A program made the translations under genes and the position numbers. 64,000 nucleotides of DNA from Tabrizicola sp. GTDB taxonomy: Bacteria; Pseudomonadota; Alphaproteobacteria; Rhodobacterales; Rhodobacteraceae. A model generated the notes under the pieces. That model did no database searches. It had not been told where the DNA came from and saw only the letters and a list, made by a program, of their open reading frames with translations. The first letter of the stretch is position 1. Every line of letters starts with the position of its first letter. The stretch spans positions 1 through 64,000 of the forward strand of contig NZ_JAEULO010000041.1 in assembly GCF_016793705.1 (NCBI RefSeq), written 5' to 3'. Shown here piece after piece: positions 5,894-45,959 of the stretch.

Positions 5894-5943
5894 CAGTTTT
5901 CAGTGGGGTTTCGGCGAAGCCTGGCGTTCTTTCGATAGTTATC

Positions 5944-5958: not shown

Positions 5959-6027
5959 GTTCCCTGTCAAACATTGCCCCCGTCCGCCCGCCCGCGCTTC
6001 ACTGCCTGCAAGCGATCGGAAGGGCGC

Positions 6028-8421: not shown

Positions 8422-10838
8422 AGACCGAGGCGCGGGTTCTGATCATCGGCGGCGGCGCCATGGGTGTGTCGCTGTTGTACCATCTGGCCAAGACCGGCTG
8501 GACCGATCTGGTGCTGACCGAGAAGAACGACCTGACCCATGGCTCTACCTGGCATGCCGCAGGCCTGTGCACCCATTTCGCCCATAACCCGACCATCCAG
8601 GAACTGCGCGCCACCTCGGTGCGACTCTACCGCGACATCCTGCCGGCCGAAACGGGCGATACCTGCGGCTTTCACCGCTCAGGCGCGATGCGGATCACCT
8701 CGAACCCCGACCGGATGGACGAGTTCGCCCATGTCGCGGGCCTCAGCCGCTTCACCGGCTATGACCTGCAACTGCTGAAAAGCCCCGAAGAGGTCGCGGC
8801 GTTGCATCCGCTGGCGCGGACCGAGGGCATCTTGGGCGGCATCTACGAACCCGATGACGGCCATGTCGACCCGACGCTCGCGACCAATGCGATGGCCAGG
8901 GTGGCGCGGCAGAACGGCGCGACGATCCTGCGGCACAACCCGGTCCTGTCGATCTTGCGCGAGGCCGGCCATTGGCGGGTGGAAACGGCACAGGGCACGA
9001 TCCGCGCGCAGCATATTGTCAATGCCGCCGGCACCTGGGGCTGGGAGATTGGCCACATGATGGGGCTGAACATCCCCTCGGTGCCGGTCCTCCACCAGTA
9101 TCTGGTCACCGACACCGTCCCGGTCGTGGCCGCACGCATCGCCGCCGGCCTGCCGGAACTGCCGATGATCCGCGACCCCGAGGAAAGCTGGTATGTCCGG
9201 CAGGAACGCGATGCGCTGATCCTGGGGCCGTATGAGAAAGAGGCGCAGGTCTGGTCGGTCGATGGCGTGCCGCCCGACTTCGGCGCCGAACTGATGCCGC
9301 CCGATCTTGATCGAGTCGAGCATATCCTGATGGCCGCCATGGCGCGTATCCCGGCCCTGGAAACCGGCGGCGTCAAATCGGTGGTCAACGGGCCGATCAC
9401 CTTCACCCCCGACGCCAATCCGCTGATCGGCCCGGCGCATGGCCTGCCCGATGCCTGGCTCTTGACCGGATCTTCCATGGGCGTGATGGAGGGCGGCGGC
9501 TCGGGTTGGTTCCTGGCGCATTGGATGACGCATGGCGCGCCGCCGATGGATGCGCTTGCCGTCGACAGCCGCCGCTTCGGCAGCTGGGCCGACCGAGACT
9601 ACCGCGTTGCCAAGGCGATCGAGTGTTTCGGCCTGCAATTCGGCGTGCATTACCCTTACGAAGAACGTCCCGCGGCCCGCGGCAAACGCCTGACGCCGCT
9701 GCACCGGCTGATGCTCGACCGCGGCGCGGTCATGGGCACGGTGAACGGCTGGGAGAGGCCTAACTGGTTCTCGGACCATCCGGGCGACGTGGCGATCCCC
9801 AGCTTTCGCCGCGCCAACTGGTTCGATCGGGTCGCCAGCGAATGCCAGACCGTCACGACGGCCGCTGGCCTGGCGGACATGTCGGTCTTATCGAAATTCG
9901 AGGTGACCGGCTCCGGCGCCCGCGCCTTCATTGATGCGCTTGGCGCCAATCTCGCCCCCCGCGCCGGGCGCATCGGCCTGACCCATGCCCTGTCGCCCGC
10001 CGGCGGCACGGAATCGGAATTTACCGTCGCCTGCCTGTCGGACAGCCATTTCTACCTGACCTCGGCCGCCGGCGCCGAACAGCGTGACGACGATCTCTTG
10101 CGGGCAAGGTCCGCGGGCTTCGAGGTGACCATCACCCGGGTTTCCGACGCCATCAGCATCCTCGGGCTCATGGGCCCCGCCGCGCGGCAGATCCTGCAAT
10201 CCCTGACCCCTGACGACCTTGGTTCTTGGATGTCGGTCCGCCTGACCACGGTCGCCGGCATTCCCGTCCGGGCTCTGCGGCTCTCCTATGTCGGAGAGCT
10301 GGGCTGGGAACTTCACGCGCCTGCAGACCGCACCGCCGATCTGTTTCTGGCGCTCGAATTGGCGGGCAAGCCGCACGGGCTAGGCCTCTTTGGCGCCTAT
10401 GCGATGAATGCGATGCGCATCGAAAAGGGCTACCCCGCCTGGGGCAGCGATTTCACCACCGAACGCAGTCCGGCCGAAACCGGCATGGGCTTTCTGATCA
10501 AGCCCGATCACGATTTCATTGGGCGAGAGGCCTTGTTGCGCCGCATGGACGATCCCAGGCGTTGGGACCTGGTGCAGATCGAAATCGCGACGGCCGATGT
10601 CGATCCCTATTTCTCGCACAGCATCTGGCAGGGCGACCGCTGCGTCGGCGTGGTTACCTCGGCCGCCTACGGCCACCGCACCGGCAAGACCCTGGCCCTG
10701 GCCTATCTGCGCGACCGCGAAGCCCGCGACGGGCTGACGGTAGAGGTGCTTGGCCAGCGCCGTGCCGCAACCGTGCTGGACCGGCCACCCTTTGATCCCG
10801 ACAATACCCGGCTGAAAGACCGGCCCAGCGGAGGTTGA
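8418..10838 (+). CDS. FAD-dependent demethylating dehydrogenase with GcvT domain (DMGDH-like), copy 2
   Basis: This 806-aa paralogue of the preceding gene has the same architecture: GGGAMG at residues 11-16, STWHAAG with His46 at the covalent-flavin position of DMGDH, and C-terminal GcvT modules including the LSYVGELGWELH and MRIEKGYPAWGSDFTTE signatures. The ATG at 8418 was chosen because it overlaps the upstream stop and homology begins there. Two different demethylases in tandem suggest successive removal of two methyl groups (dimethyl to monomethyl to primary amine). Electrons would go to the quinone pool via ETF, and the one-carbon unit to methylene-THF. Identity between the copies looks moderate, so this is an old duplication or two separate recruitments. 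Confidence 0.85.
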   Translation: MKTEARVLIIGGGAMGVSLLYHLAKTGWTDLVLTEKNDLTHGSTWHAAGLCTHFAHNPTIQELRATSVRLYRDILPAETGDTCGFHRSGAMRITSNPDRMDEFAHVAGLSRFTGYDLQLLKSPEEVAALHPLARTEGILGGIYEPDDGHVDPTLATNAMARVARQNGATILRHNPVLSILREAGHWRVETAQGTIRAQHIVNAAGTWGWEIGHMMGLNIPSVPVLHQYLVTDTVPVVAARIAAGLPELPMIRDPEESWYVRQERDALILGPYEKEAQVWSVDGVPPDFGAELMPPDLDRVEHILMAAMARIPALETGGVKSVVNGPITFTPDANPLIGPAHGLPDAWLLTGSSMGVMEGGGSGWFLAHWMTHGAPPMDALAVDSRRFGSWADRDYRVAKAIECFGLQFGVHYPYEERPAARGKRLTPLHRLMLDRGAVMGTVNGWERPNWFSDHPGDVAIPSFRRANWFDRVASECQTVTTAAGLADMSVLSKFEVTGSGARAFIDALGANLAPRAGRIGLTHALSPAGGTESEFTVACLSDSHFYLTSAAGAEQRDDDLLRARSAGFEVTITRVSDAISILGLMGPAARQILQSLTPDDLGSWMSVRLTTVAGIPVRALRLSYVGELGWELHAPADRTADLFLALELAGKPHGLGLFGAYAMNAMRIEKGYPAWGSDFTTERSPAETGMGFLIKPDHDFIGREALLRRMDDPRRWDLVQIEIATADVDPYFSHSIWQGDRCVGVVTSAAYGHRTGKTLALAYLRDREARDGLTVEVLGQRRAATVLDRPPFDPDNTRLKDRPSGG

Positions 10839-10842
10839 CAGC

Positions 10843-11598
10843 ATGAACCCGATCTACGCGCTCTGGTCGCATCCGCGGTCCATGTCGACCGCGATGGAGC
10901 GGGTGATGCGCGAGCGCGGCGACTTGGACTGTGCGCATGAGCCGTTCATGTATGACTACTATGTCGCGCGGCAGATCCGCGTCATGCCGCATTTCAAGGT
11001 GCAGCCGGGCCACCCGGTCAGCTACAGCGCGATCCGCGACCAGCTGCTGGTTCGCGCCAAGGCGCGCCCGGTCTTCATTAAGGATATGAGCTATTACGTC
11101 ATGCCGCATATCCTGTCGGATGCGGGTTTCGCGGCGCGGCTGGTTAACTGCTTCCTGATCCGCGATCCGCTGGCGGCGATCCTGTCCTATTTCAAGCTCG
11201 ACCCCGACGTGACGCTGGACGAGATCGGGCTTGAAGCGCAATGGTTGCAGTATCAGGCGCTGGCCGAACGCGGCCCGGCACCGTCGGTGATCACGGCCGA
11301 GGATATCCGCCGCAACCCAAGGGTCGCAATGGCGGCGCTGTGGGCCAGGTTGGGACTGCCATATTCCGAAGTGGCCTTCGACTGGCAGAAGCAGAAGCCC
11401 AAGGACTGGGAACAGGTCAGTGGCTGGCATGCCGATGTTATGGCCTCGACCTCGATCCGCCCGATCGACGCGGATGAGACCGTTGCCCTACAGGCGCAAT
11501 TCGATGAAATGGCCGCGGCTCAGCCGCGGATGAAAGATTATCTGGCCCATCATCGGCCGTTCTACGAAAGGTTGCGCTCGGTTGCCCTGACGGTCTGA
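10843..11598 (+). CDS. Sulfotransferase-fold (P-loop) family protein
   Basis: This 251-aa protein starts MNPIYALWSHPRSMSTAMER. SHPRSMSTAM (residues 9-18) is a 5'-PAPS-loop-like P-loop, and FLIRDPLAAILSYFK resembles the 3'-phosphate-binding segment of sulfotransferases (R-x-P-x-x-x-x-x-S-Y). The gene begins 5 bases after the second demethylase stop, so it is the last member of that operon. Sulfotransferase-family proteins of about 250 aa with this motif are common in alphaproteobacteria but poorly characterised, and a role in betaine metabolism is not established. It may sulfonate a hydroxylated intermediate, or act as a P-loop protein without PAPS chemistry. The family call is firm; the activity is open. 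Confidence 0.75.
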   Translation: MNPIYALWSHPRSMSTAMERVMRERGDLDCAHEPFMYDYYVARQIRVMPHFKVQPGHPVSYSAIRDQLLVRAKARPVFIKDMSYYVMPHILSDAGFAARLVNCFLIRDPLAAILSYFKLDPDVTLDEIGLEAQWLQYQALAERGPAPSVITAEDIRRNPRVAMAALWARLGLPYSEVAFDWQKQKPKDWEQVSGWHADVMASTSIRPIDADETVALQAQFDEMAAAQPRMKDYLAHHRPFYERLRSVALTV

Positions 11599-11698
11599 CC
11601 TTCCCCCGACCGCAACGCTCTCCCGGTCTGCGCGGGGCCTGGCAGCCCGCGCCGAAAGCTGCGGCATGCCCGACGCATGAAGCCGAGATATGCTATTC

Positions 11699-11713
11699 AT
11701 TAGTTTCACTAAT
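11699..11713. promoter_or_regulatory. LysR box upstream of the betaine transporter operon
   Basis: ATTAG-TTTCA-CTAAT has the same perfect arms and 5-base spacer as the site at 5944-5958. It lies 79 bases upstream of the proX-like ATG in a 193-base intergenic region with no other feature. The identical arm sequence implies that the transporter belongs to the regulon of the LysR protein encoded at 4922-5893. Confidence 0.65.
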
Positions 11714-11791
11714 TTTGCGGATTCCCCGATACGCCCTGCGCGCTGGCGTGCCAGCATTTCGCTGTCATCAATCTCAGCCCGGAGACACAGC

Positions 11792-12763
11792 ATGCAATTC
11801 CCCGTCAAATCGACCGCGCTTCTTGCCGCCGCCTTCTCTCCCCTATTTGCTCCCGCGAGCGCCTTGGCCGCCGATATCGTCATTCCCGATCCGAACTATG
11901 CCTCGGGCCGCGCCACCGCCTATGCGGTCAAGGCGATTCTGGAAGAGGGTCTGGGCCTTGATGTCGAGATGGCCACCACGACCGCCGTCCCGGTGATCTG
12001 GGAAGCGATGGGCCGCGGCACGGGCGAGATCGACGTCTGGACCGAGACCTGGCTGCCCAACCAGTCGGGTCTGGCGCAAAAATATGCCGATGAGGAAAAG
12101 AGCGTCACCATCGGCGACAAGTTCTTCCCCGCCGTGCAGGGCTATTGCGTGACCAAGGTCACCATGGACCAGTATGGCATCAAGTCGGTGTTCGATCTGG
12201 CCAATCCCGAGAATGCCAAGCTGTTCGACACCAATGGCGACGGCAAGGGCGAAATCTGGATCGGCCCGCAAGGCTGGCAGTCGACCAATATCGAGACGAT
12301 CCGCGCCCGCGACTACGGTTTTGCCGATTTCTTCGAACTGCAATCCACCGACGAGGCTGTGGCGACCGCAAGCCTCGATGCGGCGGCCAAGGCGGGCAAG
12401 CCTTGGGTCGGATACTGCTACGGCCCGCACCAGAACTTCGCGACCTATGACATCGCGCTTCTGCAGGAACCCGCGCACGACGATGGCGATTTCGTCATGG
12501 TGCAGCCTGCCGACGATCCGGACTGGATGGCCAAGTCGCATGTCGCTTCGGCCTATGCCGACACGACCGTGCATATCAGCTGGTCCAGCACCCTCGCCGA
12601 CCGCCAGCCGCAGGCCGTGGCGCTGCTGAAGAACATCCAGCTTTCGGCCGAGGACGTGAACGCCTGGTCGCTGGCGATCGTGAACGGCAAGGAGCCTGCC
12701 GAGGTCGCCGATGAATGGGTCAAGGCCCATCCCGACCTGATCGCGCAATGGATGGCCCAGTGA
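11792..12763 (+). CDS. ProX/OpuAC-type periplasmic substrate-binding protein (betaine/choline class)
   Basis: This 323-aa preprotein has a Sec signal peptide (positive MQFPVK, hydrophobic core, cleavage after ASALAA near residue 28) and an OpuAC-type domain (PF04069). Aromatic residues (WETWLPNQS, GYCYGPHQN, HISWSST) are compatible with a cation-pi cage for a quaternary ammonium group. The start at ATG 11792 has GGAG at 11781-11784. It is followed by a stem-loop and then ATPase and permease genes, the proXVW order. Given its neighbours, the ligand is probably the compound demethylated by the MttB-like and DMGDH-like enzymes; choline, glycine betaine, carnitine or another betaine cannot be told apart by eye. 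Confidence 0.85.
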   Translation: MQFPVKSTALLAAAFSPLFAPASALAADIVIPDPNYASGRATAYAVKAILEEGLGLDVEMATTTAVPVIWEAMGRGTGEIDVWTETWLPNQSGLAQKYADEEKSVTIGDKFFPAVQGYCVTKVTMDQYGIKSVFDLANPENAKLFDTNGDGKGEIWIGPQGWQSTNIETIRARDYGFADFFELQSTDEAVATASLDAAAKAGKPWVGYCYGPHQNFATYDIALLQEPAHDDGDFVMVQPADDPDWMAKSHVASAYADTTVHISWSSTLADRQPQAVALLKNIQLSAEDVNAWSLAIVNGKEPAEVADEWVKAHPDLIAQWMAQ

Positions 12764-12772
12764 CGTTCGAAT

Positions 12773-12795
12773 GCGGCGGTCCCAGCGGCCGCCGC
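12773..12795 (+). terminator. Intercistronic stem-loop between binding protein and ATPase genes
   Basis: GCGGCGG at 12773-12779 pairs with CCGCCGC at 12789-12795 around a 9-base loop, 10 bases after the proX-like stop and 36 before the ATPase start. There is no long U-run (GCCCCTTTCCCC follows), so it probably acts as an attenuator or 3' mRNA stabiliser that keeps the binding protein in excess. Confidence 0.5.
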
Positions 12796-12830
12796 GCCCC
12801 TTTCCCCTACAAGGCTAGGATGAAGTCTGA

Positions 12831-13877
12831 ATGACAGAAGCGGCGGTGATCACGCTTGAACGCGTCTGGAAGGTCTTCGGCCCCCATGCCGACCAGGCAC
12901 TTGCCGCCGCCCGCGCCGGTATGCCCAAGGCCCAGATATTCGAGCGGTTCAACTGCATCCTTGGCGTCTCGAATGCCTCGCTGTCGGTCGGCCGGGGCGA
13001 GATCTTCTGCGTCATGGGCCTGTCGGGATCGGGCAAGTCCACGCTGGTGCGCCATATCAACCGGCTGCTGGAACCCTCGGCCGGCCGGGTGCTGATCGAG
13101 GGCGAGGACATCCTTGCCAAATCCCCTGCCGAGCTGCGCGACCTGCGGGCGCGGCGCATCGGCATGGTCTTCCAGAATTTTGGCCTCTTGCCGCACCGGA
13201 CCGTACGCGAGAATGTCTCGCTGCCGCTTGAGATTCAAGGCGCCCCCCTCCGCGAAAGACATGCCCTGGCCGAGGCGGCGCTGGCGCGGGTCGATCTCTC
13301 GGGCTGGGGCGACCGGCTGCCCGCCAGCCTCTCGGGCGGCATGCAGCAGCGTGTCGGGTTGGCCCGGGCGCTTGCCGCCGACCCGCCTATCCTTCTGATG
13401 GACGAACCCTTCTCGGCGCTCGACCCATTGATCCGGCGGCAGTTGCAGGACCAGTTCCTGTCCCTCTCGCGCGAGATCGGCAAGACTACCGTCTTCATCA
13501 CCCATGACCTGGACGAGGCGATCCGCATCGGCACGCGCATCGCGATCATGAAGGACGGGGTGATCGTCCAGACCGGCACGCCCGAACAGATCGTGGCCGA
13601 ACCCGCGGACAGCTATGTCGCCGATTTCGTGGCACATATCTCGCGCCTGCATGTCGTTCACGCGCACCGGATCATGGAACCCCTGGCAGAATACCTTTCC
13701 CGCAATCCCGGCGCCGATCTGAATGGCGCGCCAGCGGCAAGGCCGGGCATGACGCTTGCCCAGCTGATCACGCTTGCCCAGGCCAGCGAGGCGCCGCTGG
13801 TCGTGCAGGACGACGGCCGGCCGGCCGGCGTGATCGACCGGACCCGCCTTCTGCGCAGCATCCAGAAAGAGCCCTAG
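12831..13877 (+). CDS. ProV-type ABC transporter ATPase (betaine/choline class)
   Basis: This 348-aa ATPase has the N-terminal VWKVFGPHA segment characteristic of ProV-like subunits, Walker A GLSGSGKST at residues 63-71, Q-loop VFQNFGLLPHRT, signature LSGGMQQR from residue 167, Walker B ILLMDEP at 187-193 and H-loop ITHDLDEA. About 110 residues after the nucleotide-binding domain correspond to a CBS-like regulatory tail, shorter than in E. coli ProV, so osmotic gating may be reduced. It is followed after 2 bases by the permease gene. Cytoplasmic face of the inner membrane; works with the ProX- and ProW-like products on either side. Confidence 0.88.
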   Translation: MTEAAVITLERVWKVFGPHADQALAAARAGMPKAQIFERFNCILGVSNASLSVGRGEIFCVMGLSGSGKSTLVRHINRLLEPSAGRVLIEGEDILAKSPAELRDLRARRIGMVFQNFGLLPHRTVRENVSLPLEIQGAPLRERHALAEAALARVDLSGWGDRLPASLSGGMQQRVGLARALAADPPILLMDEPFSALDPLIRRQLQDQFLSLSREIGKTTVFITHDLDEAIRIGTRIAIMKDGVIVQTGTPEQIVAEPADSYVADFVAHISRLHVVHAHRIMEPLAEYLSRNPGADLNGAPAARPGMTLAQLITLAQASEAPLVVQDDGRPAGVIDRTRLLRSIQKEP

Positions 13878-13879
13878 CC

Positions 13880-15382
13880 ATGACTGAAACGCCGACCCCC
13901 AATCCGTTCGGCCCGGGCCTCGCGCAATTCCTTGGCCGCGGCGCCGCCTATTACGGCGCCGCCTTCGCGCGGATCGACCAAAGCGGCGGGCGCGCCGTGG
14001 TGCCCAACCTCTGGGCGGGGATCCTGGGGCCGGTCTGGCTGGCGGCGCGCGCACTTTGGGGCGTGTTCTGGTTCGCCTTCTTGGCCGACATGCTGGCCGT
14101 CGTCCTGATCGGCATCGGCCTTCTGGGCGATCTGGGCAGCGACGCGATCGCGCGGGCCGACCGGCTGGCCCAGCAGGCGGCCGAGCGGATGGTCGCCGCC
14201 GAGGCCGCGATTGCCAGCGGCGACAGCCTGGGCGAAAGCATGAAGACCTCGGCCCAGGCCATCGCGCAGGCCGCCGACCAGGCGCGCGCCACCGCCGATG
14301 CCGCAAGGCTGCGGGCGCCCGCCTTCATCGCGGGTGGTGCGGCGCTGGGCCTGGCCGTGCACGGGCTGTGCGCGCTGTTCGGCACCGCCCTGCTTGCCGC
14401 CCGCTACCGCCGCTGGCGCGCCCTGCCGGCGCTGCCGCATGGCCTGCCGCCGCTGCGGCTGGCCTTCGCGGCCCTGTTGCCGGCGGTCTGCCTGCCGCTG
14501 GCCGTCTACCGCTTCGCCGCGCCCGCGCCGCCCGACTGGCTGGTGTCCTTCCCGGCCGCGACCGACCTGCGCAGCGACCTGTCGCGCGCGATCGACGCCG
14601 GAGTCTCGTCGCTGGCCGACAACCTCGCCTGGCTGTTCACCGGCATCACCGGCGCGATCAACGCCGTCCTGAACCTGATGGAGATCGCGCTGGTCGCCAC
14701 GCCCTGGCCCATCGTGATGATCGCGGTCCTGGCGATTTCCTGGCAGGTCGCCGGTCCGCGCGTGGCAAACTTCGCCGCTGCGGCGCTGGCCTATCTGGCC
14801 GTGCTGGGCTTTTGGGAGAAAAGCATGGCCACCGTGGCGCTTCTTGGCACTGCCGCGGCGCTTTGCGTGGCGATCGGCATTCCGCTTGGGGTCTGGTGCG
14901 GCCGCAAGCCGCGCGTCTACAGCGCGATGCGACCGGTGCTGGATTTCATGCAGACCATGCCGGCCTTCGTCTACCTGATCCCTGTCATCGCCTTTTTCGG
15001 CATCGGCAAGCCGCCTGGCATCATCGCGACGCTGATCTTCGGCATGCCGCCGGTGATCCGCCTGACCGCGCTTGGCATCGCGAACGTGCCGGAGACCGTG
15101 CGCGAGGCCGCCACAGCCTTCGGTGCCTCACGTCGGTTCCTGCTGTTCAAGGTCGATCTGCCGCTGGCCATGCCCTCGATCATGACCGGGGTGAACCAGA
15201 CACTGTTGATGTGCCTCTCCATGGTCGTCATCGCCTCGTTGATCGGCGCCAAGGGCTTGGGCGAGGATGTGCTATCGGCCCTGCAATATGCGGCGGTGGG
15301 GCAGGGGATTCTGGCCGGGATGGCGATCCTATTGTGCGCCATCGTGCTTGACCGCATCGTCCAAGGACGCAGTTGGACATAA
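13880..15382 (+). CDS. ProW-type ABC permease with an Ala-rich helical insertion
   Basis: This 500-aa permease has a typical binding-protein-dependent module in its C-terminal half (LPLAMPSIMTGVNQTLLMCLS carries the EAA-loop region) and several hydrophobic segments. It is longer than common ProW proteins (about 280-390 aa). After the first membrane segment (about residues 50-85) comes a strongly Ala/Gln/Asp-rich, helix-prone stretch (about 88-145, including AQQAAERMVAAEAA and AQAIAQAADQARATADAA) before the next membrane helix. This looks like a soluble helical hairpin or coiled coil and is not a usual ProW element. The gene starts 2 bases after the ATPase stop. Confidence 0.85.
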   Translation: MTETPTPNPFGPGLAQFLGRGAAYYGAAFARIDQSGGRAVVPNLWAGILGPVWLAARALWGVFWFAFLADMLAVVLIGIGLLGDLGSDAIARADRLAQQAAERMVAAEAAIASGDSLGESMKTSAQAIAQAADQARATADAARLRAPAFIAGGAALGLAVHGLCALFGTALLAARYRRWRALPALPHGLPPLRLAFAALLPAVCLPLAVYRFAAPAPPDWLVSFPAATDLRSDLSRAIDAGVSSLADNLAWLFTGITGAINAVLNLMEIALVATPWPIVMIAVLAISWQVAGPRVANFAAAALAYLAVLGFWEKSMATVALLGTAAALCVAIGIPLGVWCGRKPRVYSAMRPVLDFMQTMPAFVYLIPVIAFFGIGKPPGIIATLIFGMPPVIRLTALGIANVPETVREAATAFGASRRFLLFKVDLPLAMPSIMTGVNQTLLMCLSMVVIASLIGAKGLGEDVLSALQYAAVGQGILAGMAILLCAIVLDRIVQGRSWT

Positions 15383-15544
15383 TCTACCGCATTGGCAAGA
15401 CCGGCGACCGGCTGAAAGATATGTGCTTCTCGGCCGGCTCACTGCCGAGAAACTTCGGGCGGAAACCAACGCGCGGACCTGTCACGGCAAACCGGCTTTC
15501 GGTGGGGCAGGGCGCCCCGCCAGCCTGCCGAGATAACCAAACCC

Positions 15545-15960
15545 TCCCCTTTCCGTTACTTTAAGACGAGCCCTGAGATCATCCACTTGGACGTGATGCT
15601 CTACGTCCGATTCCCGCTGTCGCTTCGCAACGTCGAGGACCTTCTGCACGAGCGCGGCATCGAGGTCAGCCACGAGACCCTGCAGTACGGGTGGAACAGG
15701 TTCGGGCCGATGTTTGCCGCGAGATCAGGGGCAACTGGGTCGAGGCCATACGCGAGCATCGCCTCTGGCACCTGGACGAGCTCACGTGAAGCTCAACAGG
15801 GTGACGCACTACCTCTGGCGGGCTGTGGATCATGAGGGCGAGGTGCTGGAAAGCATCGTCACCAAGACCCGTGATCGCAAGGCGGCCCTTAAGTTTCTGA
15901 AGAAATCGATGAAGCGCCACGGTGAGCCCGAAACGATCATGACGGATCGGCTCCGGTCAG
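15545..15960 (+). pseudogene. IS6-family transposase, 5' half, frameshifted
   Basis: Translation gives the IS6 N-terminus PFRYFKTSPEIIHLDVMLYV, RFPLSLRNVEDLLHERGIEV and WNRFGPMFA in one frame. A shift near 15720 moves the homology to EIRGNWVEAIREHRLWHLDE, and a third segment reads VTHYLWRAVDHEGEVLESIV up to ETIMTDRLRS. At least two frameshifts therefore interrupt it. The catalytic domain then stops where an IS5 fragment begins on the other strand (about 15950). It is related to the truncated copy at 141-566 but more decayed. Confidence 0.85.
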
Positions 15961-16375
15961 CGGACGCCCCTTGACGTCGGTGACGTGCAGCTTGGTGTTC
16001 AACCCGCCCTGCGCCCGATCGGACGCCCGCGCTGATCGTCCGGCCCCTCTTTTTCGCCCGAAGGCTCGAAGCTGTGCGGTGCGCCTTCAGATAGGTCGCG
16101 GCAATCATGATGGTTTTCTGCTCGCCGCCTTTGGTGGCCAGGCCTTCCATCATCCGGGTGAAGACATCCATGTCGCCCCACCGTTTCCAACGATTGTTGA
16201 GCGTCTTCGGAGGGCCACGCTTCCCCGATGCATCGCACCACCGCAACCCATTGCGGTCTATGACTCCGCACAGGACGCGCCGGTCATCCACCTGCGGCCT
16301 GCCATGGGTCTTGGGGAAGAGCGGCTTCGGCCGCTCTGTCTGATCACGCGCGGCTAGTATCAAACCGACTGAGTC
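15950..16375 (-). pseudogene. IS5-family (IS427-like) transposase fragment
   Basis: On the minus strand the sequence reads LFPKTHGRPQVDDRRVLCGV, NGLRWCDASGKRGPPKTLNN, RWKRWGDMDVFTRMMEGLA and TIMIAATYLKAHRTASSLRA. It then needs a frame change to continue as GPDDQRGRPIGRRAG and LNTKLHVTDVKGRPLT. This is the N-terminal and central part of an IS5-family, IS427-group DDE transposase with frameshifts, cut before the second catalytic region. It abuts the IS6 fragment at about 15950-15960, so one element interrupted or recombined with the other. Confidence 0.8.
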
Positions 16376-16529
16376 CATCCGAAGGGTCGGCGCTTCCCGG
16401 ACTGGGAGAACTGAAAAGCGGCATCAGCATTCAGGCAATCTGAGATTGTGGCAGCAAAGGCCCCCCCTTAACGTCGCTGCATTCCCGTGATTCCGGGTGG
16501 ATGCAGAGACCACAGGGCTGGATTCGAGA

Positions 16530-16826
16530 ATGCAGAATGCACGGCAAGACACCTTTTTCGCCCATTCTGGAAGGTCCGAGGATGGCAGCGACTGGCAAAC
16601 GCTTCTTGAACATCTGGAGGGAACCGCCGCGCGAGCGGCGACGGCGGGCGAGAGGCTGGGTCTGCCGCTGTGCGCGAGCATCGCAGCGCGGTTTCATGAC
16701 TTCGGCAAGTACGATCCCGCCTTCCAGTGGCGGTTGAGCGGCGACAAGACCGCGGTCGACCATTCCACCGCCGGGGCGCACCTGCTGCTCGGTCGTGCCG
16801 GACCGATGCCCCATGCCGCACAGTTG
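16530..16826 (+). pseudogene. cas3: cas3 N-terminal (HD nuclease) remnant fused to the CRISPR array
   Basis: From ATG 16530 (in frame with an upstream GTG at 16497) about 99 codons read DTFFAHSGRSEDGSDWQTLL, RFHDFGKYDPAFQWRLSG and AVDHSTAGAHLLL. This is the start of a Cas3 HD-nuclease domain: AHS, the His-Asp pair of FHDFGKY, and DHSTAGA are the metal-binding motifs. Homology stops at about 16826, exactly where the first, damaged CRISPR repeat begins, and the frame then runs into repeat sequence. In type I-C loci the order is cas3-cas5-cas8c-cas7-cas4-cas1-cas2-leader-array, all on one strand, so a single deletion from inside cas3 to the first repeat explains what is seen. The helicase domain and all other cas genes are absent from the window. 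Confidence 0.82.
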
Positions 16827-17249
16827 CTGGCCTCCGGGAGCGTGGATCGAAACTTTTCGGGCGCAGAGGCTGCGGACAAGCAGACCGGTCGCTCCCCATC
16901 CGGGAGCGTGGATCGAAACGTCACACGACGCGCCACGAGCGCGTCCTGTTCCGGTCGCTCCCCATCCGGGAGCGTGGATCGAAACGTTCGCCTGGTTGCC
17001 GACCAGCGAAGGGTGGTTCGTCGCTCCCCATCCGGGAGCGTGGATCGAAACATCGCGTCTGCGCAGGAGGCGTCAGCGCCACTGGTCGCTCCCCATCCGG
17101 GAGCGTGGATCGAAACACTCTGATGGGTGCCAACGTCAAGGTCGTGGACAAGTCGCTCCCCATCCGGGAGCGTGGATCGAAACGCTCGAAGCCCCTCGGT
17201 CAGTGACCCATAGACTTGTCGCTCCCCATCCGGGAGCGTGGATCGAAAC
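16823..17249 (+). CRISPR. Orphan type I-C-like CRISPR array, 7 repeats and 6 spacers
   Basis: Six identical 32-base repeats start at 16888, 16954, 17020, 17085, 17152 and 17218. Each begins GTCGCTCCCCATCCGGGAGC and ends GTGGATCGAAAC; GCTCCC/GGGAGC forms the hairpin stem, and the ATCGAAAC-type 3' end is typical of type I-C. A seventh, leading copy (16823-16853) keeps only the last 21 bases exactly and is scrambled before that. The six spacers are 34, 34, 34, 33, 35 and 34 bases and all unique. The crRNA strand is the plus strand by repeat orientation, so the leader should lie to the left, but a cas3 fragment is there instead. The last repeat is undegraded. Targets cannot be identified from the sequence alone. 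Confidence 0.97.
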
Positions 17250-17769
17250 CGGATGTAACGGCGCGCCCGGGTATCGTTCTGAACAGCACGGTCGGGCTGC
17301 CAGCATTGCAGGCAGGTTGCCCGGTGAAATGCCTTGGAATAGCGACTTAGAACATTGCGGGCATCACGCACAAAAGGCCGCTTGCAGGTTTCCGGCCCAC
17401 GCCAAAGCGACCAGAGATAGCCGATGTCGCATGCCTAATCTCCGCGCTTGCGGCAACCATTCAGGTGCACGGCGACTTCTATGCAACAGACGGTCGCGCT
17501 TCGGATGTCGCGGGTAACGTCGCTCTCATCGAAAACGGTGGCGTCACCGCCTACCCGGGTCAGGCACGATTTCCCCAACGCGTGACCGAAGCCCGGCAGC
17601 AGGGTGTCTCGGTCGACCCCCGGTGAAAATCGAGACTATAGCGCCACATAAAACCAAAGGGTGCCGTCAGAGGAGACCGCCTGCGGTGGGCAGGGTACCC
17701 GATCGGCCTTCTGGCATGATCAAACGCTCTCTGCAAAATCCGGGCAGACCCATGCAAGGCCCACAAAGA
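17250..17769. other. Unassigned stretch after the CRISPR array
   Basis: No recognisable gene. A plus-strand frame without a good start runs to a TGA at 17624-17626 and encodes residues such as ACLISALAATIQVHGDFYAT and NVALIENGGVTAYPGQARF; I could not match it to a family, and it may be the tail of a decayed gene. A minus-strand frame at 17260-17420 (including FVRDARNVLSRYSKAFHRAT) is equally unassigned. The region lies between the array and an IS6 end, so it is probably residual flank of the former CRISPR-cas locus or transposon debris. Confidence 0.4.
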
Positions 17770-17871
17770 AATCCGCATCGCCGCTCTCGCCGGGTGGCGC
17801 GGCCTTTTCGCTGCCTGACCGAACGACGGGGCAGGGGTAACGCAAACTGGTTCGCATTCGTCTGACAGCAC
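17770..17871 (+). mobile_element. IS6 element 3' scrap with terminal end
   Basis: The sequence ATCGCCGCTCTCGCCGGGTG and following translate to IAALAGWRGLFAA-stop, matching the transposase C-terminus AAALAEWRGLLDA-stop at 525-566. The trailing non-coding end (17830-17871) matches 579-620, including TTCGCATTCGTCTGACAGCA. Only the last ~35 codons and the terminus remain. The tip lies 11 bases from the stop of the adjacent dppF-like gene, so the element end abuts that operon's 3' boundary. Confidence 0.7.
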
Positions 17872-17882
17872 CTGGTCGGGAG

Positions 17883-18725
17883 CTATTGTACCCCGGCCCG
17901 CGCAAGGCGTCGGCGCTCTACCCTTGTGCGGATGGCAGCCACATCCGTCACCGGGGTCGCAGCGAAAAGCTGGCGGGTATAGGGATGGGTCGGGTTGGCA
18001 AAAACCTCTTCCCGCGTACCCTGTTCCACCGCCTCGCCCTTCGAGATCACCATCACCTCGTCCGCAATGTAGCGCACGACGGACAGGTCATGGCTGACAA
18101 AGACATAGGTCAGGCCGAACTCGTCCTGAAGATCGGCCAAGAGGTTCAGAACCTGCGCCTGCACCGACAGGTCCAGCGCCGAGACGGGTTCGTCAAGCAC
18201 CAGAAGCGAGGGGTTCAGCATCAGCGCCCGTGCGATGGCGATGCGCTGGCGCTGCCCGCCCGAGAACATATGCGGATAGCGGTTGAAGTGTTCGGGTTGC
18301 AACCCGACCTTGGCCAGCATCGCCTCGGCCCGCTCACGCTGCTCGGCGGCGGGGACATTGGTGTTGATCGCCAAGGGCTCCATCAGCACATTGCCGATCT
18401 TCTGGCGCGGGTTCAGGCTGCCATAGGGGTTCTGGAACACCATCTGCACCTTCGACCGCATGTCCGGCCCCGGGCGGTGCGCGCGGATATCGACGGGCTT
18501 GCCCTCGATCCGCAACTCGCCGCCGGTGGGGGCGTCGATCAGGGCGATCACCCGGGCCAGAGTGGACTTGCCCGAGCCGGATTCGCCGACGATGGCCAGT
18601 GTCTTGCCCTTCTCGACCCTGAAATCCACGCCCTTCAGGGCGCGGACGCTCCTGGCGCGGGCGAACATGCCGCCGGGGACGTGATAGTCCTGCACGATGG
18701 CCTTCCCTTCGACAACGGCAGTCAT
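17883..18725 (-). CDS. dppF: Dipeptide/oligopeptide ABC importer ATPase (DppF-type)
   Basis: This 280-aa ATPase has Walker [10 protein letters not shown] near residue 50, signature SGGQRQR, Walker B LLVLDEP and H-loop SHDL. Its N-terminus (YHVPGGMFARARSVRALKGV) is the DppF/OppF type. It is the last gene of a minus-strand dppABCDF operon, with its ATG in the upstream dppD stop (ATGA). It is slightly shorter than typical DppF (about 320 aa), and its TAG lies only 11 bases from an IS6 end; the final residues (RVERRRLARAGVQ) may therefore differ from the ancestral C-terminus, but the catalytic core is complete. Confidence 0.88.
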   Translation of the reverse strand: MTAVVEGKAIVQDYHVPGGMFARARSVRALKGVDFRVEKGKTLAIVGESGSGKSTLARVIALIDAPTGGELRIEGKPVDIRAHRPGPDMRSKVQMVFQNPYGSLNPRQKIGNVLMEPLAINTNVPAAEQRERAEAMLAKVGLQPEHFNRYPHMFSGGQRQRIAIARALMLNPSLLVLDEPVSALDLSVQAQVLNLLADLQDEFGLTYVFVSHDLSVVRYIADEVMVISKGEAVEQGTREEVFANPTHPYTRQLFAATPVTDVAAIRTRVERRRLARAGVQ

Positions 18726-19561
18726 CGCGCGGCCTCCTGCGTGAAGAAGTCGGATACGGTGGGCAGCCGGTCGCCGGTGGCATTCTCGGGCAGGGCCGAA
18801 AGAAGTGCGCGGGTATAGGGATGCTGCGGGTTTTCGAACAGCGACAGCACGTCGGCCTCTTCCATCTTCTTGCCCTTGTACTGCACCACCACGCGGTCGG
18901 CGGTCTCGGCCACCACGCCCATGTCATGCGTGATCAGGATCAGGGCCATGCCGTAATCTTCCTGAAGTTTCATCAACAGGTCGAGGATCTGCTTCTGGAT
19001 CGTCACATCGAGCGCCGTGGTCGGCTCGTCCGCGATCAAGAGGCGCGGGTTCGAGGCGATGGCCATGGCGATCATCACCCGCTGGCACTGCCCGCCCGAC
19101 ATCTGGTGCGGATAGGCCTTCAGCTTTTCCTCCGGCTCGGGGATGCCGACGGCGCGATAAAGTTCCAGCGCTCGGGCATGGGCCTCGCGCCGGGACATGC
19201 CCAGGTTCAGCCGCAGCACCTCCTCGATCTGGAAGCCGGTGGTGAAGCTGGGGTTCAACGAGGCGACGGGTTCCTGGAAGATCATCGTGATCTCGCGCCC
19301 GATCAGCTTGCGCCGCTGCACCGCCGTCATGTTCGAGATATCCTGACCGTCATAGGTCATCTCGTCGGCGGTGATGGTGGCGGTGTCGGGCAGGAGGCCC
19401 ATCACCGCCAGCATCGAGACCGACTTGCCCGAGCCGCTTTCGCCGACGATGGCCAGCACCTCGCCCTTGTCGACCGAGACGTCGATCCCGTCCACGGCGG
19501 TGAAGCTGCCGGTGGCGGTGGCGAATTTGACCGTAAGGTTGCGGATGTTCAGAAGCGCCAT
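18722..19561 (-). CDS. dppD: Dipeptide ABC importer ATPase (DppD-type)
   Basis: This 279-aa ATPase has Walker [12 protein letters not shown], the Q-loop segment [15 protein letters not shown], signature [14 protein letters not shown], Walker [15 protein letters not shown] and H-loop THDMGVV. Together with DppF it forms the heterodimeric ATPase of a peptide importer. It starts 3 bases after the permease stop and overlaps dppF by 4 bases. The iron-sulfur-type C-terminal extension seen in some DppD proteins is absent or very short here. Confidence 0.9.
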
Positions 19562-19564
19562 CTG

Positions 19565-20467
19565 TCAGCTCCGCTTCAGTTTCGGGTCAAGGGCGTCGCG
19601 CAGCCCGTCGCCCATCAGGTTGATCGCCAGCACCGAGACCAGAATGGCGAGGCCGGGGAAGGTCACGACCCACCACGCGGACAGGATGAACTCGCGTGCC
19701 TCGGCCAACATGGTGCCCCATTCCGGCGCGGGCGGTTGCGCGCCCATGCCAAGAAAGCCAAGCGCGGCGGAGTCGAGCACGGCGGAGGAGAACGACAGCG
19801 TCGCCTGCACGATCAGGGGCGCCAGGCAGTTGGGCAGGATGGTCCTGAACATCAGCCGCAGGTTGCCCGCCCCGGCAACACGGGCGGCGGTGACATATTC
19901 ACGCTTCATCTCGCTCATCACGGCGGCGCGGGTCAGCCGGGCGAAATGCGGCTGGTAGACGATGGCGATGGCGATCATCGCATTGGTCAGCCCCGGCCCA
20001 AGCACCGCAACCAGCACCAGTGCTAGAAGAAGGGATGGGAAGGCGAGGATCACGTCCATCACCCGCATGATGACGGTATCCACCCAGCCGCCGAAGAAAC
20101 CGGCGAGAAGGCCGATGACGATGCCGCCGACCAGCGCGATGGACACGACGACGATGCCGATGAACAGCGAATACTGCGCGCCGTAGATCAGCCGCGACAG
20201 CATGTCCCGCCCGACGGCATCGGTGCCGAGGATATAGGCCGCGCGCCCCTTTTCCTCCCACATCGGGGGGACCAGCAGGGCATCGCGGTATTGCACCGTC
20301 GGGTCATGCGGGGACAATAGCCCGGCAAAGACCGCGACCAGCACCAGAAGGATGAAGACGATCAGCCCAAGCACCGCGCCCCGGTTCTGGCTGAAGTAGA
20401 ACCAGAACTCGGCCAGCATCCGGCGGCGGATGGCGGCATCCGAAAGTTTGACGGTTGCGTCGGTCAT
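19565..20467 (-). CDS. dppC: Dipeptide ABC importer permease (DppC-type)
   Basis: This 300-aa permease has an N-terminal OppC-type segment (EFWFYFSQNRGAVLGLIVFI), about six membrane helices and the EAA-like loop of type 1 importers (AARVAGAGNLRLMFRTILPN). The start was placed at ATG 20467 because it overlaps the dppB stop (ATGA) and homology begins there; the frame stays open upstream only as an antisense artefact within dppB. Inner-membrane partner of DppB. Confidence 0.9.
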   Translation of the reverse strand: MTDATVKLSDAAIRRRMLAEFWFYFSQNRGAVLGLIVFILLVLVAVFAGLLSPHDPTVQYRDALLVPPMWEEKGRAAYILGTDAVGRDMLSRLIYGAQYSLFIGIVVVSIALVGGIVIGLLAGFFGGWVDTVIMRVMDVILAFPSLLLALVLVAVLGPGLTNAMIAIAIVYQPHFARLTRAAVMSEMKREYVTAARVAGAGNLRLMFRTILPNCLAPLIVQATLSFSSAVLDSAALGFLGMGAQPPAPEWGTMLAEAREFILSAWWVVTFPGLAILVSVLAINLMGDGLRDALDPKLKRS

Positions 20468-21471
20468 GTGTTGCGGATCCTCGGGTTGATCAGGCCATAG
20501 GTCAGGTCGACCAGCAGGTTCACCAGCATCACCAGACCGGCGATGAGCAACAGGCCGGACTGCACCACCGGATAGTCGCGGCGCGAAATCGAATCGATCA
20601 TCCATTTGCCGATGCCGGGCCAGGAGAAGATCGTCTCGGTCAGGATCGCCCCGGCCATGAGAACACCGATCTGCAAGCCGATGGTGGTGATGACCGGGAT
20701 CATGGCGTTCCTCAGCGCATGGATGCCGATCACGCGTGACGGGGGCATCCCCTTGGCGCGGGCGGTGCGGACATAGTCCTCGCCCATCACCTCCAGCATC
20801 GCGGACCGGGTCTGCCGGGCGATCACCGCCAGCGGGATCGTCGCCAGCACGACCGAGGGCAGGATCAGGTGCGAAAGCGCCGAAGTGAACGCCCCCTTCT
20901 GCCCCGACAGAAGGCTGTCGATCAGCATGAAGCCGGTGACATCGGGAAAGTAATACAACAGGTCGATCCGCCCCGATACCGGCGTCCAGCCCAGGATGCC
21001 GGAGAAGAGGATGATCAAGAGCAGCCCCCACCAGAAGATCGGCATCGAAAACCCGATCAGCGCGGTGGTCATGGAAATCTGGTCGAACCAGCTGCCGCGC
21101 TTGATGGCGGCCAGAACCCCGACCGGCACGCCGATCAGCGTGGCAATGATGATGGCGCAAAGACCCAGCTCGACCGTTGCCGGGAACAGGGTCAGGAATT
21201 CGGTCAGGACGGGCTTCTTCGTCACCAGCGAGTTGCCGAAATCGCCGTGGAACAACCGCCCCAGAAAGTCGAAATACTGCAGCACCACCGGCTTGTCATA
21301 GCCGAGTTGCGCGGTCAGCTCCGCGTGCCGCTCGGGGGTGACGCCCCGCTCACCCGCCATCAGCAGCACAGGATCGCCGGGCAGGATGCGCACGAAACTG
21401 AAGGCGATGATGGTGATGCCGAGGAAGGTCGGCACCAGATACAAGAGCTTGGAGAGGATGAACCTGATCAT
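20464..21471 (-). CDS. dppB: Dipeptide ABC importer permease (DppB-type)
   Basis: This 335-aa permease begins MIRFILSKLLYLVPTFLGIT, the characteristic OppB/DppB N-terminal helix, followed by a periplasmic loop with the GDPVLLMAGERG pattern, and then the six-helix module with RTARAKGMPPSRVIGIHALR as the coupling EAA loop. It lies 74 bases downstream of dppA on the minus strand, separated by a strong stem-loop, and overlaps dppC by 4 bases. Confidence 0.92.
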   Translation of the reverse strand: MIRFILSKLLYLVPTFLGITIIAFSFVRILPGDPVLLMAGERGVTPERHAELTAQLGYDKPVVLQYFDFLGRLFHGDFGNSLVTKKPVLTEFLTLFPATVELGLCAIIIATLIGVPVGVLAAIKRGSWFDQISMTTALIGFSMPIFWWGLLLIILFSGILGWTPVSGRIDLLYYFPDVTGFMLIDSLLSGQKGAFTSALSHLILPSVVLATIPLAVIARQTRSAMLEVMGEDYVRTARAKGMPPSRVIGIHALRNAMIPVITTIGLQIGVLMAGAILTETIFSWPGIGKWMIDSISRRDYPVVQSGLLLIAGLVMLVNLLVDLTYGLINPRIRNT

Positions 21472-21491
21472 GCGCCTCGTTCCTATAGAGA

Positions 21492-21522
21492 GCGCGCGGG
21501 GAACCCATCGCCCCCCGCGCGC
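21492..21522 (-). terminator. Intercistronic stem-loop between dppA and dppB
   Basis: GCGCGCGGGG at 21492-21501 pairs perfectly with CCCCGCGCGC at 21513-21522 around an 11-base loop. On the transcribed (minus) strand it follows the dppA stop by 23 bases and is followed by TCTCTATAGG rather than a U-run. It is probably a partial terminator or mRNA stabiliser that raises dppA mRNA over the downstream genes. Confidence 0.6.
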
Positions 21523-21545
21523 CCGGTTTTGTCAGAGAAAGCCGA

Positions 21546-23150
21546 TTACTCGGCGATATCCACGGTTTCGAAGGTGAAGTCACCCAGCGGGCTCATCACG
21601 AAGCCCGAGACCTTGGCTGACATCGGCACATACTGGGTCGAGTGGGCGATGGTAAACCAGGGCGCCTGATCCTTGAAGATCACCTGTGCCTGCTCGTAAA
21701 GCGCGGTGCGCTCGGCCGGGTCGGCAGTGATCTTGGCGTCCTTCAAGAGCTTGGAGAAATCCTCGTTGCACCAGAAGGCACGGTTCGCCCCACCGTCACC
21801 GGCGGAATCGCAGGACAGCAGCACGGACAGGAAGTTGTCCGGGTCGCCGTTGTCGCCGGTCCAGCCCAGGATCACCGCGCCGTCACGGCCCGGTTCCATG
21901 GATTTGGCCAGGTATTCGCCCCATTCGTAGCTGACGATCTCGACCTTGACGCCGACCTTCGACAGGTCTTCCTGCATCAGTTCTGCCGTGCGCTTGGCGT
22001 TCGGCATGTAGGGGCGCTGCACCGGCATCGCCCAGATCTTCATCGACAGGTCAGTCACCCCGGCTTCGGCCAGCATGGCCTTGGCGGCTTCGGGGTCATA
22101 GGCGTCATCGACGATGGCGTCGTTGTAGGACCACATGGTCGGCGGGATCGGGTTCTTCGCCGGTTCGGCCGCGCCCTGGAACACCGCATCCACGATGGCC
22201 TGCTTGTTTATCGCCATGTTCAGCGCCTTGCGGACCTTCGGATTGTCGAAGGGCGGCATGGTGGTGTTGTAGGCCAGATAACCCACGTTCAGGCCGGCCT
22301 GCTCGTCCAGCTTCAGGCTGGCGTCAGCCTTGATGCCTTCGATGTCGGCGGGGGCCGGATAGGGCATCAGATGGCATTCGCCGGCCTTCAGTTTCTGCAG
22401 GCGGACGGCAGCGTCCGGGGTGATCGCGAAGACCAGGTCGTCGATGATCGGCGCCGTGCCCCAGTAGTCCGGGTTCTTGGTGTAGCGGATCACGGCGTCC
22501 TTCTGATAGGCCACGAACTTGAACGGGCCGGTGCCGATCGGCATGTTGTTCAGATCCTCGCGCGTACCGGCGGCGTCCAGCGCATCGGCATATTCCTTCG
22601 ACACGATCGAGGCGAAGGGCATGGCGATGTTCGCCAGGAACGGCGCCTCTGGCGTGTTCAGGGTGAACTTCACCGTGTAGTCGTCGATCTTCTCGATCGA
22701 CTTGATCAGGTCCGGCATCGCCATCGAGGTGTAGTATTCGTAGGTGATGCCCGGGATGTACTGGTGCCAGGGGTTCTCGGCATTGCCCTGACGGTCATAC
22801 GAAAAGATCACGTCGTCGGCGTTGAAGTCACGCGTGGGGGTGAACTTCTCGTTCGACTGCCACTTCACGCCCTTGCGCAGGTGGAAGGTGTATTCGGTGC
22901 CGTCTTCCGAAACTTCCCAGCTTTCGGCCAGACCCGGCTCGACCTCGGTCGTGCCTTTCTTGAATTCGGTCAGGCGGTTGTAGATCGGGTGGGCCGAGGC
23001 GTCGAAGGTGCCGCCTGCGGTATAGGGCGCAGGGTCAAAGCCTTCGGGCGACGCTTCCGAGCAATAGACGAAGGTCTTGGCAAGGGCGGGCATGGCGGAG
23101 GTCATCGCCAGCGCCGATGCCGCAACGAGCATACGGGTAATCATCTTCAT
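21546..23150 (-). CDS. dppA: Dipeptide-binding periplasmic protein (DppA-type, SBP family 5)
   Basis: This 534-aa preprotein has a signal peptide ([20 protein letters not shown]...ALA). The mature start [20 protein letters not shown] closely follows E. coli DppA, as do [20 protein letters not shown] and [12 protein letters not shown]. The ATG at 23150 was chosen because an AAAGGA ribosome binding site sits just upstream; the longer GTG start (23165) would lie within that site. First gene of dppABCDF. The binding pocket accepts di-/tripeptides or, in some homologues, haem or aminolevulinate; the M24 peptidase gene next door favours proline-containing dipeptides. Confidence 0.92.
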
Positions 23151-23230
23151 GTCTTGTCCTTTCACTCTCTGTTGTAGCCTGCGCCGACCCGGTTGAGATG
23201 GGCCGGACTTTTCAAGACCTTGCGTCGCGG

Positions 23231-24424
23231 CTAGGTCCCGATCTCTGTCACACCGAATGGATCATCCAGCCGCTCGGCAGGGGGCACAAACCAGCGCGGG
23301 CCGGAGTGTGTCATGTAGACGATGTCTTCCAGCCGGACACCGCATTCGCCATAGACGCACAGCATCGGCTCGATGGAAAAGCACATGCCCGCCTCAAGCG
23401 GGGTGTCGTTGCCACCCACGATATAGGGCGCCTCGTGGATATCCAGACCCAGGCCATGCCCGGTGCGGTGTGGCAGGCCGGGCACCTGGTAGCCGGGGCC
23501 GAAACCTGTATCGGTAAACACCTTGCGCGCGGCCGCATCGACCGAGGCGCAGGTCGCGCCGATCCGGGCCGCCGCAAAACCCGCGGCCTGCGCCTGCCGC
23601 TCCAGCTCCCACAACTCGCGCTGCCGGGGGGTCGGGGTGCCGAACACATAGGTCCGGGTGATGTCGGAGGAGTAGCCCTGCAAGGTGCCGCCCATGTCGA
23701 CAAGCACCATATCGCCGTCCACCAGCACCTGCGGATGCGGCACGCCATGCGGATAGGCGGTCGCCTCGCCGAACTGCACGGCGGCAAACAGCGGCTTCAG
23801 CCCAAGGGCGCTATGCGCGGCCAAGATGAACTGGGCAACCTCGGTCGTCGAGATACCTTCGCGCAACCCGGCATGAACCGCCTTCTGCACCCGAAAGCTC
23901 GCGTCCATCGCGGCCTGCATCAGCGCCAGCTCGGCAGGCGATTTCACCTGCCGCTGCGCCGAGATCATCGCTTGGGCCAAGGTTACGGGGCCTTGGATGG
24001 CCTGCATCAGGGCCGAGGCGAAGACAAAGGGCGTCGCCGGGTCCAGCGCAAAGCCCGCGCCCGGCGCGTCGAAACCCGCCAGACGGGCCGCGATCAGCGC
24101 ATAGGGGTTTTCATGTTCTTCCCAGACCGCGATGTCGCCGGGAAGGCGCAGGAGAGTCCGCAGCTTCGGCGCCTCGAACTGGGGCGAGACATAGATCATC
24201 GAGCCATCCGCCGGAACCAGCGCGCCATGAATCCGTTCCGACAGCCCCAACGACAGTCCGGTGTAATAGGTCAGCGAGGACGAGGCATCCAGCCAGACCG
24301 CCTTGATGCCCGCCCCGACCATCCGCGCCTGAAGCCCCGATACCCGCGCCCGCAGCTCTGCCGGTTGGATGGGCTGCGCCTGGACATGGCCGAAGGCGTC
24401 AAGCGCGGTGGCAAAATCGGTCAT
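23231..24424 (-). CDS. M24-family metallopeptidase (Xaa-Pro dipeptidase/aminopeptidase type)
   Basis: This 397-aa protein has an N-terminal creatinase-like domain and a C-terminal pita-bread domain. All five metal ligands are in place: Asp243 (VLVDMGG), Asp254 (SSDITR), His323 ([10 protein letters not shown]), Glu352 (FSIEP) and Glu366 (VRLEDI). This argues for a dinuclear-metal aminopeptidase P/prolidase and against creatinase, which lacks the metal site. The start was set at ATG 24424 with GGAAG upstream; a TTG three bases earlier is in frame. It lies 80 bases upstream of dppA on the same strand, so imported Xaa-Pro-type peptides could be cleaved in the cytosol. No signal peptide. Confidence 0.85.
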
Positions 24425-24563
24425 CAAGCTTCCATTGTCCGTTCACGGGCGACGTGCAGGGTGGCAGTTTGGCGTGACTGTCAGCGCCTTGAACGAGACG
24501 TGTCACCGCTGAGCGCGCGACCTGCCCCCACAGGAACGCCGTGCCACCTAAACCAGATTGGAT

Positions 24564-24575
24564 CCTATATACAAT
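24564..24575. promoter_or_regulatory. Possible GntR-type operator in a divergent promoter
   Basis: CCTATATACAAT matches the right-hand part of the TTGTATACAA-like palindromes bound by many FadR-type GntR regulators, but its left half is poor. It lies in an AT-rich patch of the 214-base divergent region between the M24 peptidase and GntR genes, about 64 bases before the latter. Weak evidence on its own. Confidence 0.25.
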
Positions 24576-24638
24576 ATCAAACTTCTTTCCGATCCGGGCA
24601 ATATTGGGTAGAGCGATGGGGTGCGGCTGGGGGCAGGC

Positions 24639-25322
24639 ATGGCGTTGAAAGGTGTCGACATTTCAAGGACCGTCTCGGCCGGCGGGCTTGTGTTCGAGGC
24701 CCTGCGCCGGGCCATCATCGAGGGCGAACTGAAGGATGGCGACTCGCTCCGCCAGGATGAAATCGCGCGCCTGTTCAACACCAGCCGGATTCCGGTGCGC
24801 GAAGCGATCACCATGCTGGAGCAGCAGGGGCTGGTGAAGAACCACCGTTTTAGGGGGGCGGTCGTGGTCGGCCTGTCCATCGCCGAGGCCAGCGAGATCT
24901 TCGATTTCCGCTGCATCATGGATGCCCATGTGATCCGCGCCGCCGTGCCGCATATGACGCCCGCCGTGATCGCCGAGGCCCGCGCCATCTGTGACGCCTT
25001 TTCCGCGACCGACGATCCGGCGCGCTGGGGCGATCTGAACCGCGACTTTCACATGACGCTTTATCGGGCCAGCAACCTGCCCTTTCATCTGGGCACGTTG
25101 ACCAATGCGATGGATCGGCTTGACCGCTATGTTCGCGCGCAGCTTCTGCTGACCGAAGGCCATGCCCGCGCCAATGCCGAACATCTGGAGATTCTGGAGG
25201 CCTGTGCGCGCGGCGACGCCGATGCGGCGGCAGAACTGACCACCGCGCATATCCGTCGCGCCCATGCGATGCTGCGCGAGCATCTGGCGAAGATCCAGGC
25301 GGCATTCGGCGGGACCCTTTAG
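24639..25322 (+). CDS. GntR-family (FCD/FadR-type) transcriptional regulator
   Basis: This 227-aa protein has an N-terminal winged helix (LVFEALRRAIIEGELKDGDS, IARLFNTSRIPVREAITMLE) and a C-terminal all-helical FCD ligand domain with the expected metal ligands: Asp in LNRDFHMTLYRAS with its His, and HLEILEACARGD plus TAHIRRAH. The start was set at ATG 24639 (MALKGVDISRT) after a G-rich stretch; a GTG at 24621 is possible. It is divergent from the M24 peptidase-dppABCDF genes and is probably their regulator. Confidence 0.88.
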   Translation: MALKGVDISRTVSAGGLVFEALRRAIIEGELKDGDSLRQDEIARLFNTSRIPVREAITMLEQQGLVKNHRFRGAVVVGLSIAEASEIFDFRCIMDAHVIRAAVPHMTPAVIAEARAICDAFSATDDPARWGDLNRDFHMTLYRASNLPFHLGTLTNAMDRLDRYVRAQLLLTEGHARANAEHLEILEACARGDADAAAELTTAHIRRAHAMLREHLAKIQAAFGGTL

Positions 25323-45940: not shown

Positions 45941-45959
45941 CCCCGGCTGGTTCCCGCCT

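Follow-up and report, generated by a model that had tools for sequence, protein, structure and literature searches.

Degraded CRISPR-Cas loci in which a piece of cas3 is what remains of the operon have been described before. In Salmonella SL92 and SPB7 and in Shigella flexneri, the cas genes have been deleted and only a cas3 pseudogene is present, and it has been proposed that arrays can outlive their own cas genes (PMC2886076). These loci share with the one presented here the loss of cas genes with a piece of cas3 left behind, but they belong to the “Ecoli” subtype, and no direct junction between cas3 and a repeat is described in section 7 of that paper (PMC2886076). In Staphylococcus epidermidis, CRISPR-Cas loci are likewise lost through large deletions, which extend over ~65.7 to 306.5 kb and arise through the action of IS elements or a transposon, through recombination between homologous regions, or through cassette excision; this system, however, is of the csm-gene type, and the joins in the part of that account considered here are not nearly blunt (PMC3784566). 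The present locus lies in a stretch of 64,000 nucleotides of Tabrizicola sp. DNA, the whole of which is called the window below, and is another case of the first kind, that of the cas3-pseudogene remnants, in subtype I-C and with a readable scar. The “Ecoli” subtype is presumably I-E in the present naming, and the csm-gene system of S. epidermidis we take to be III-A.

The start of cas3 runs without a gap into a CRISPR array, whose first repeat is incomplete and is followed by six perfect repeats and six spacers (Table 1); all of this had been noted in a preliminary description of the window and can be read directly from the letters. The whole array, including the partial repeat, occupies 16833-17249 and directly abuts the cas3 remnant. 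Its full repeats are identical 32-nt units, GTCGCTCCCCATCCGGGAGCGTGGATCGAAAC, starting at 16888, 16954, 17020, 17085, 17152, and 17218 on the plus strand, and its spacers are 33-35 nt long and all different. Regular identical repeats, unique spacers and the lack of an adjoining cas operon are the traits of an orphan (isolated) array, while the I-C type repeat, the same-strand order and the homologous cas3 start are those of a type I-C remnant. Used as a query against its own genome, the array matched itself and nothing else (E 0.001). A paired-repeat pattern that allows either base at the one position where the same-genus genome G004 differs was found in one of 394 genomes of a family sample, the window's own; G004 lay outside this sample. 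Judged by comparison of sequences, the locus is very probably what is left of a formerly complete type I-C CRISPR-Cas locus after a deletion that fused cas3, at codon 101, to a repeat, at base 12.

Table 1. Features at and around the cas3-array fusion, in window coordinates.
Feature	Position	Strand	Evidence
IS6-family transposase gene fragment, left flank	15505..15959	+	blastn, plasmid records annotated IS6 family transposase, 68-73%
IS5-family transposase gene remnant, abuts the IS6 fragment	15958..16378	-	PF13340 and blastn
Piece of cas3 upstream region common to L009; holds palindrome CAATCTGAGATTG	16428..16456	+	26/29 nt identical to L009 4929-4957
30-nt hairpin, not in L009 upstream region	16477..16506	+	Alignment; fold -13.4 kcal/mol
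cas3 N-terminal remnant, 101 codons, without stop or frameshift	16530..16832	+	TIGR01596; L009 homology
cas3/repeat deletion junction; T at 16833 fits either side	16832..16833	+	L009 comparison
Partial repeat, last 21 of 32 nt (11 lost, left third)	16833..16853	+	Read directly
Spacers 1-6	16854-16887, 16920-16953, 16986-17019, 17052-17084, 17117-17151, 17184-17217	+	
Perfect repeats, n=6, GTCGCTCCCCATCCGGGAGCGTGGATCGAAAC, type I-C like	16888..17249	+	Read directly from window
Stretch right of array, no family assigned	17250..17876	.	Pfam; comparison with four same-genus genomes

One scan of a collection of species genomes revealed at least eight loci related to the short Cas3 piece. The nearest among the loci listed is L009, from Rhodobacter sp. 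SGA-6-6 (NZ_JAAKGP010000023.1; 86% protein identity), in which cas3, cas5c, cas8c, cas7, cas4, cas1, cas2, the leader and the array follow one another on one strand. This is the order, with cas3 first and the array last, from which the preliminary description had argued. The L009 frame 11138-12748 matches Cas1c with an E of 5.7e-155; an ORF at 11662-12363 was rejected as cas1, since it matched no family. The two loci have in common the cas3 start, the piece upstream of it, the orientation of the array and a 32-nt repeat with the same ends. By contrast, the operon and leader of L009 are complete, and its repeat differs from that of the window, mainly in the loop. DNA identity to the L009 cas3 start is 84% across 16512-16833, and the homology ends at the junction; what cas3 looked like beyond this point in the lineage of the window is deduced from L009, which at 84% identity is not a close strain. 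On L009 coordinates the loss would run from 5304 to 13237, comprising most of cas3, cas5c, cas8c, cas7, cas4, cas1, cas2, and the leader, and would amount to 7,934 bases with the partial repeat taken as the first of the array. This figure is a minimum because proximal repeats of any number may also be gone, and for the same reason the earlier claim that the partial repeat is the leader-proximal one is not borne out.

Alignment with L009 maps both endpoints, one in cas3 and one in a repeat, where they had been supposed to lie. At the junction L009 reads GGCCT/ATG, the repeat CCCAT/CCGGG and the window GGCCT/CCGGG (slashes mark the breakpoint), with one base common to cas3 codon 101 and repeat base 12. 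Illegitimate recombination most likely made the join, because the two sides share only 1 bp. A deletion of ~8 kb or more, whether a single event or several nested ones, would have fused the two endpoints and taken away everything in cas3 after codon 101, together with the Cascade and adaptation genes and the leader. The IS remnants stop ~450 bases from the junction and did not form it directly. With neither a stop nor a frameshift in the stub and no mismatch among the six full repeats, no later decay is visible. The dN/dS of the stub against L009 (0.16 over 100 codons) mainly records the period preceding the deletion and permits no dating.

The product of 16530-16826 matches the Cas3'' HD endonuclease model TIGR01596 with an E of 4.2e-15 and 56.3 bits (cut-off 43.45), in agreement with its earlier identification as the beginning of Cas3. 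With Pfam Cas3_HD the same product scores 20.2 bits, under the cut-off of 23.1, and with the general Pfam HD model 22.1 bits, barely over the cut-off of 22. The cas3 reading frame continues into the array, where a stop ends at 17123. The description of the HD motifs as intact applies to HDFGK and DHSTAG, which are kept, but not to the GHHAG (HH) and CLVDAD (distal D) of L009, which fall past the junction and are lost from the stub along with the entire helicase. Motifs of the HDFGK, HSTAG, GHHAG, and CLVDAD type hold the metal ligands of the HD nuclease, and through all four of them the L009 protein was aligned with the two best solved Cas3 chains, 8zns and 8g9u, named Cas3 in the source table and here assumed to be of type I-C. 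Since part of the metal site and the whole helicase are gone, the stub should be inactive as a nuclease.

A second set of type I-C cas genes, for which the preliminary description advised a search, was not found in the 3.84 Mb genome, a draft of 73 contigs that is 94.5% complete, with 4.48% estimated contamination, and of which ~5% may be missing. There was no cas1 (0/1 genome), no cas7c, and no further piece of cas3 beyond the stub. The operon DNA of L009 matched the stub and, on other contigs, two short stretches, one of 41 nt (E 3.5e-4) and one of 37 nt (E 6.4e-4), which are taken as chance (40 of the 416 candidate stretches scored); cas2 and the leader, both inside this query, had no match in the genome (again with 40 of 416 candidate stretches scored). 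The Cas3 core model gave four helicase matches, all under its cut-off, so that no Cas3 helicase exceeded the curated threshold in this genome; the model also responds in 14 of 14 control genomes. The search of the genome thus yielded none of what marks a working type I-C system, namely complete Cas3 (HD nuclease and helicase), cas8c/csd1 with cas7/csd2, and cas1 with cas2 and a leader. As the leader, cas genes, Cascade, and Cas3 were not found, the array could presumably neither gain spacers nor direct interference, and the locus is most likely without function in immunity.

The cas3 start was found in none of 60 other genomes, 31 of them from the same genus, which leaves the window's own genome as the sole holder among 61; no relative was found to carry the same start here beside a normal leader with the full operon located elsewhere. 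The gene cas7c is present in one of 32 same-genus genomes, G004, and the repeat of the G004 array is one base apart from that of the window. This array comprises 247 repeat units when up to 8 substitutions are allowed, 241 of them identical. The type I-C locus of G004 (L054 together with L074) occupies G004:C9:97205-118309. Its interference genes are broken too but, unlike the window, it keeps the opposite half, consisting of a partial cas8c, cas7, a stretch from cas4 through cas1 and cas2 to the leader that matches L009 at 88% and within which the leader is conserved between the two, and the array. The partial cas8c begins near profile position 146, at the contig end, behind sequence resembling an IS5-family transposase; with the break coinciding with the contig end, the front half is either lost or unassembled. 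A cas3 gene was not found in G004, nor any Cas3 core match over the cut-off. The two type I-C loci found in the genus are without different parts of the interference machinery and have both kept their arrays, which amounts to two cases and no trend. An isolated pair of type I-C repeats around a single 34-nt spacer (L085:888-985) lies on a contig of G004 (C3) other than that of the main array, and is possibly a one-spacer mini-array.

Both flanks of the locus bear signs of disturbance. On the left, an ORF at 15830-16378 of the minus strand matches PF13340 (DUF4096, E 2.9e-8), and blastn of 15958-16345 gives 77.9% identity to an annotated IS5 family transposase and 79.6% to an unannotated record. 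A glycine-betaine-type ABC block at 12862-15369 follows farther left and, among the matches listed, is matched over its full length only by G004 (73%). On the right, none of the 11 stop-to-stop segments (of 14) of 17250-17876 that were compared with Pfam at E 0.01 was assigned to a family, and the stretch has one 99-nt match, to an Octadecabacter plasmid. The oligopeptide-type ABC genes beyond it match G004, G010, G016, and G017 only from 17877-17926 rightward. In G010, ~410 bases separate the block 17877-25317 from the counterpart of 40448-50763, which comes next and has a different relative orientation. Because these ABC blocks adjoin in G010, in another orientation, but are apart in the window, the region right of the array appears to have been rearranged. 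The IS remnants on one side and the synteny break on the other are suggestive of general decay, in an accessory region that is unstable, rather than of a special adaptation.

Selection may have favored the loss, if interference kept useful mobile DNA out, as the preliminary description had suggested, or was directed against the chromosome. This alternative concerns the cause of the deletion and is compatible with it, and is considered unlikely. Cells of S. epidermidis with CRISPR-Cas deletions are indeed recovered when a plasmid must be accepted (PMC3784566), and IS remnants adjoin the Tabrizicola locus; however, no spacer target pointing to a beneficial element was found, and neutral decay explains the same anatomy. 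No protospacer was identified for any of the six spacers. In individual searches of 50,697 phage records, four of them gave no match, and the partial matches of spacer 1 (Gordonia and Mycobacterium phages) and spacer 5 (Pseudomonas phages) had best E values of 0.1 and 0.4 and are taken as chance. Exact 5' parts of the spacers, 21-26 nt long, occurred in viral contigs for none of the six. The array as one stretch matched five plasmid records at ~66-69% identity along the repeat-spacer pattern, which are read as other arrays. The search for self-targets compared the whole array with 32 same-genus genomes, its own included. The best match in its own genome outside the array (95% over 21 bases of spacer 2, E 0.2) is not a convincing target, so self-targeting was rejected as the reason for the loss. 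Apart from those to the array and the repeat pair of G004, matches with E<0.1 were found in G008, G027, G019, G029, G023, and G010; they are 21-49 bases long and span repeat-spacer borders, and were therefore rejected as protospacers.

It is rather improbable that the locus was imported already broken, in one block with the IS remnants and the glycine-betaine-type ABC genes. The restriction of the cas3 start to a single genome, the left block matched over its length by G004 alone among the matches listed, and the resumption of synteny with relatives to the right of the array would all agree with such an import. Yet it does not conflict with the deletion, merely shifting the place where it happened, and an almost identical repeat exists within the genus, in G004.

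Retention of the stub for a function is very unlikely; the old cas3 promoter region would then drive transcription of the array, which would serve in trans or would block incoming type I-C loci as an anti-cas array. The palindrome-bearing patch common to L009 and the window is possibly an old cas promoter or operator and, because this piece of the upstream region survives, transcription of the array from the old cas promoter is possible, so that the earlier view of an array probably transcribed only from outside or not at all is not borne out. A 21-nt pattern derived from the L009 patch is present in front of cas3 in one of eight relatives, L009 itself. Between the patch and the cas3 start sits the 30-nt hairpin; it has one copy in the genome (≤3 mismatches), which rules it out as a dispersed palindrome or repeated element. 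The surviving patch, the perfection of the six full repeats, and the E. coli residual arrays reported to carry spacers against cas genes (PMC2886076) speak for a retained function. Against it, a simple scan, a weak kind of evidence, detected no sigma-70-like promoter between 16380 and 17861 and gave a single match, right of the array at 17862-17889, and cas1, cas7c, and a Cas3 helicase were not found in the genome. With as many as 6 substitutions allowed, the spacers matched neither the L009 cas genes nor the other compared loci from elsewhere, so that a residual anti-cas array is not supported by this comparison. It is equally hard to credit that the array, moved under the former cas promoter, was kept as a leaderless expressed mini-array lending crRNAs to incoming or partner type I-C Cas proteins, in a genus that would repeatedly lose the interference half while its arrays persist. 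A misjoining of cas3 and array during assembly has very little probability: the draft is fragmented and carries some estimated contamination, and arrays are repetitive, but the one base shared at the join (judged by L009) offers an assembler no overlap, there is no N in the window, and the six spacers all differ.

The structural account given in the preliminary description is thus largely right, and deletion from a complete type I-C locus appears to represent genome decay of an ordinary kind with an unusually readable scar. Taken alone, the case alters no accepted view. It provides a clean, base-level example of the loss of a CRISPR-Cas locus, with two mappable endpoints and a scar that shows almost no homology. 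Together with the differently broken locus of G004, it offers a first, small set of cases in which to ask whether the loss of interference genes precedes that of arrays.
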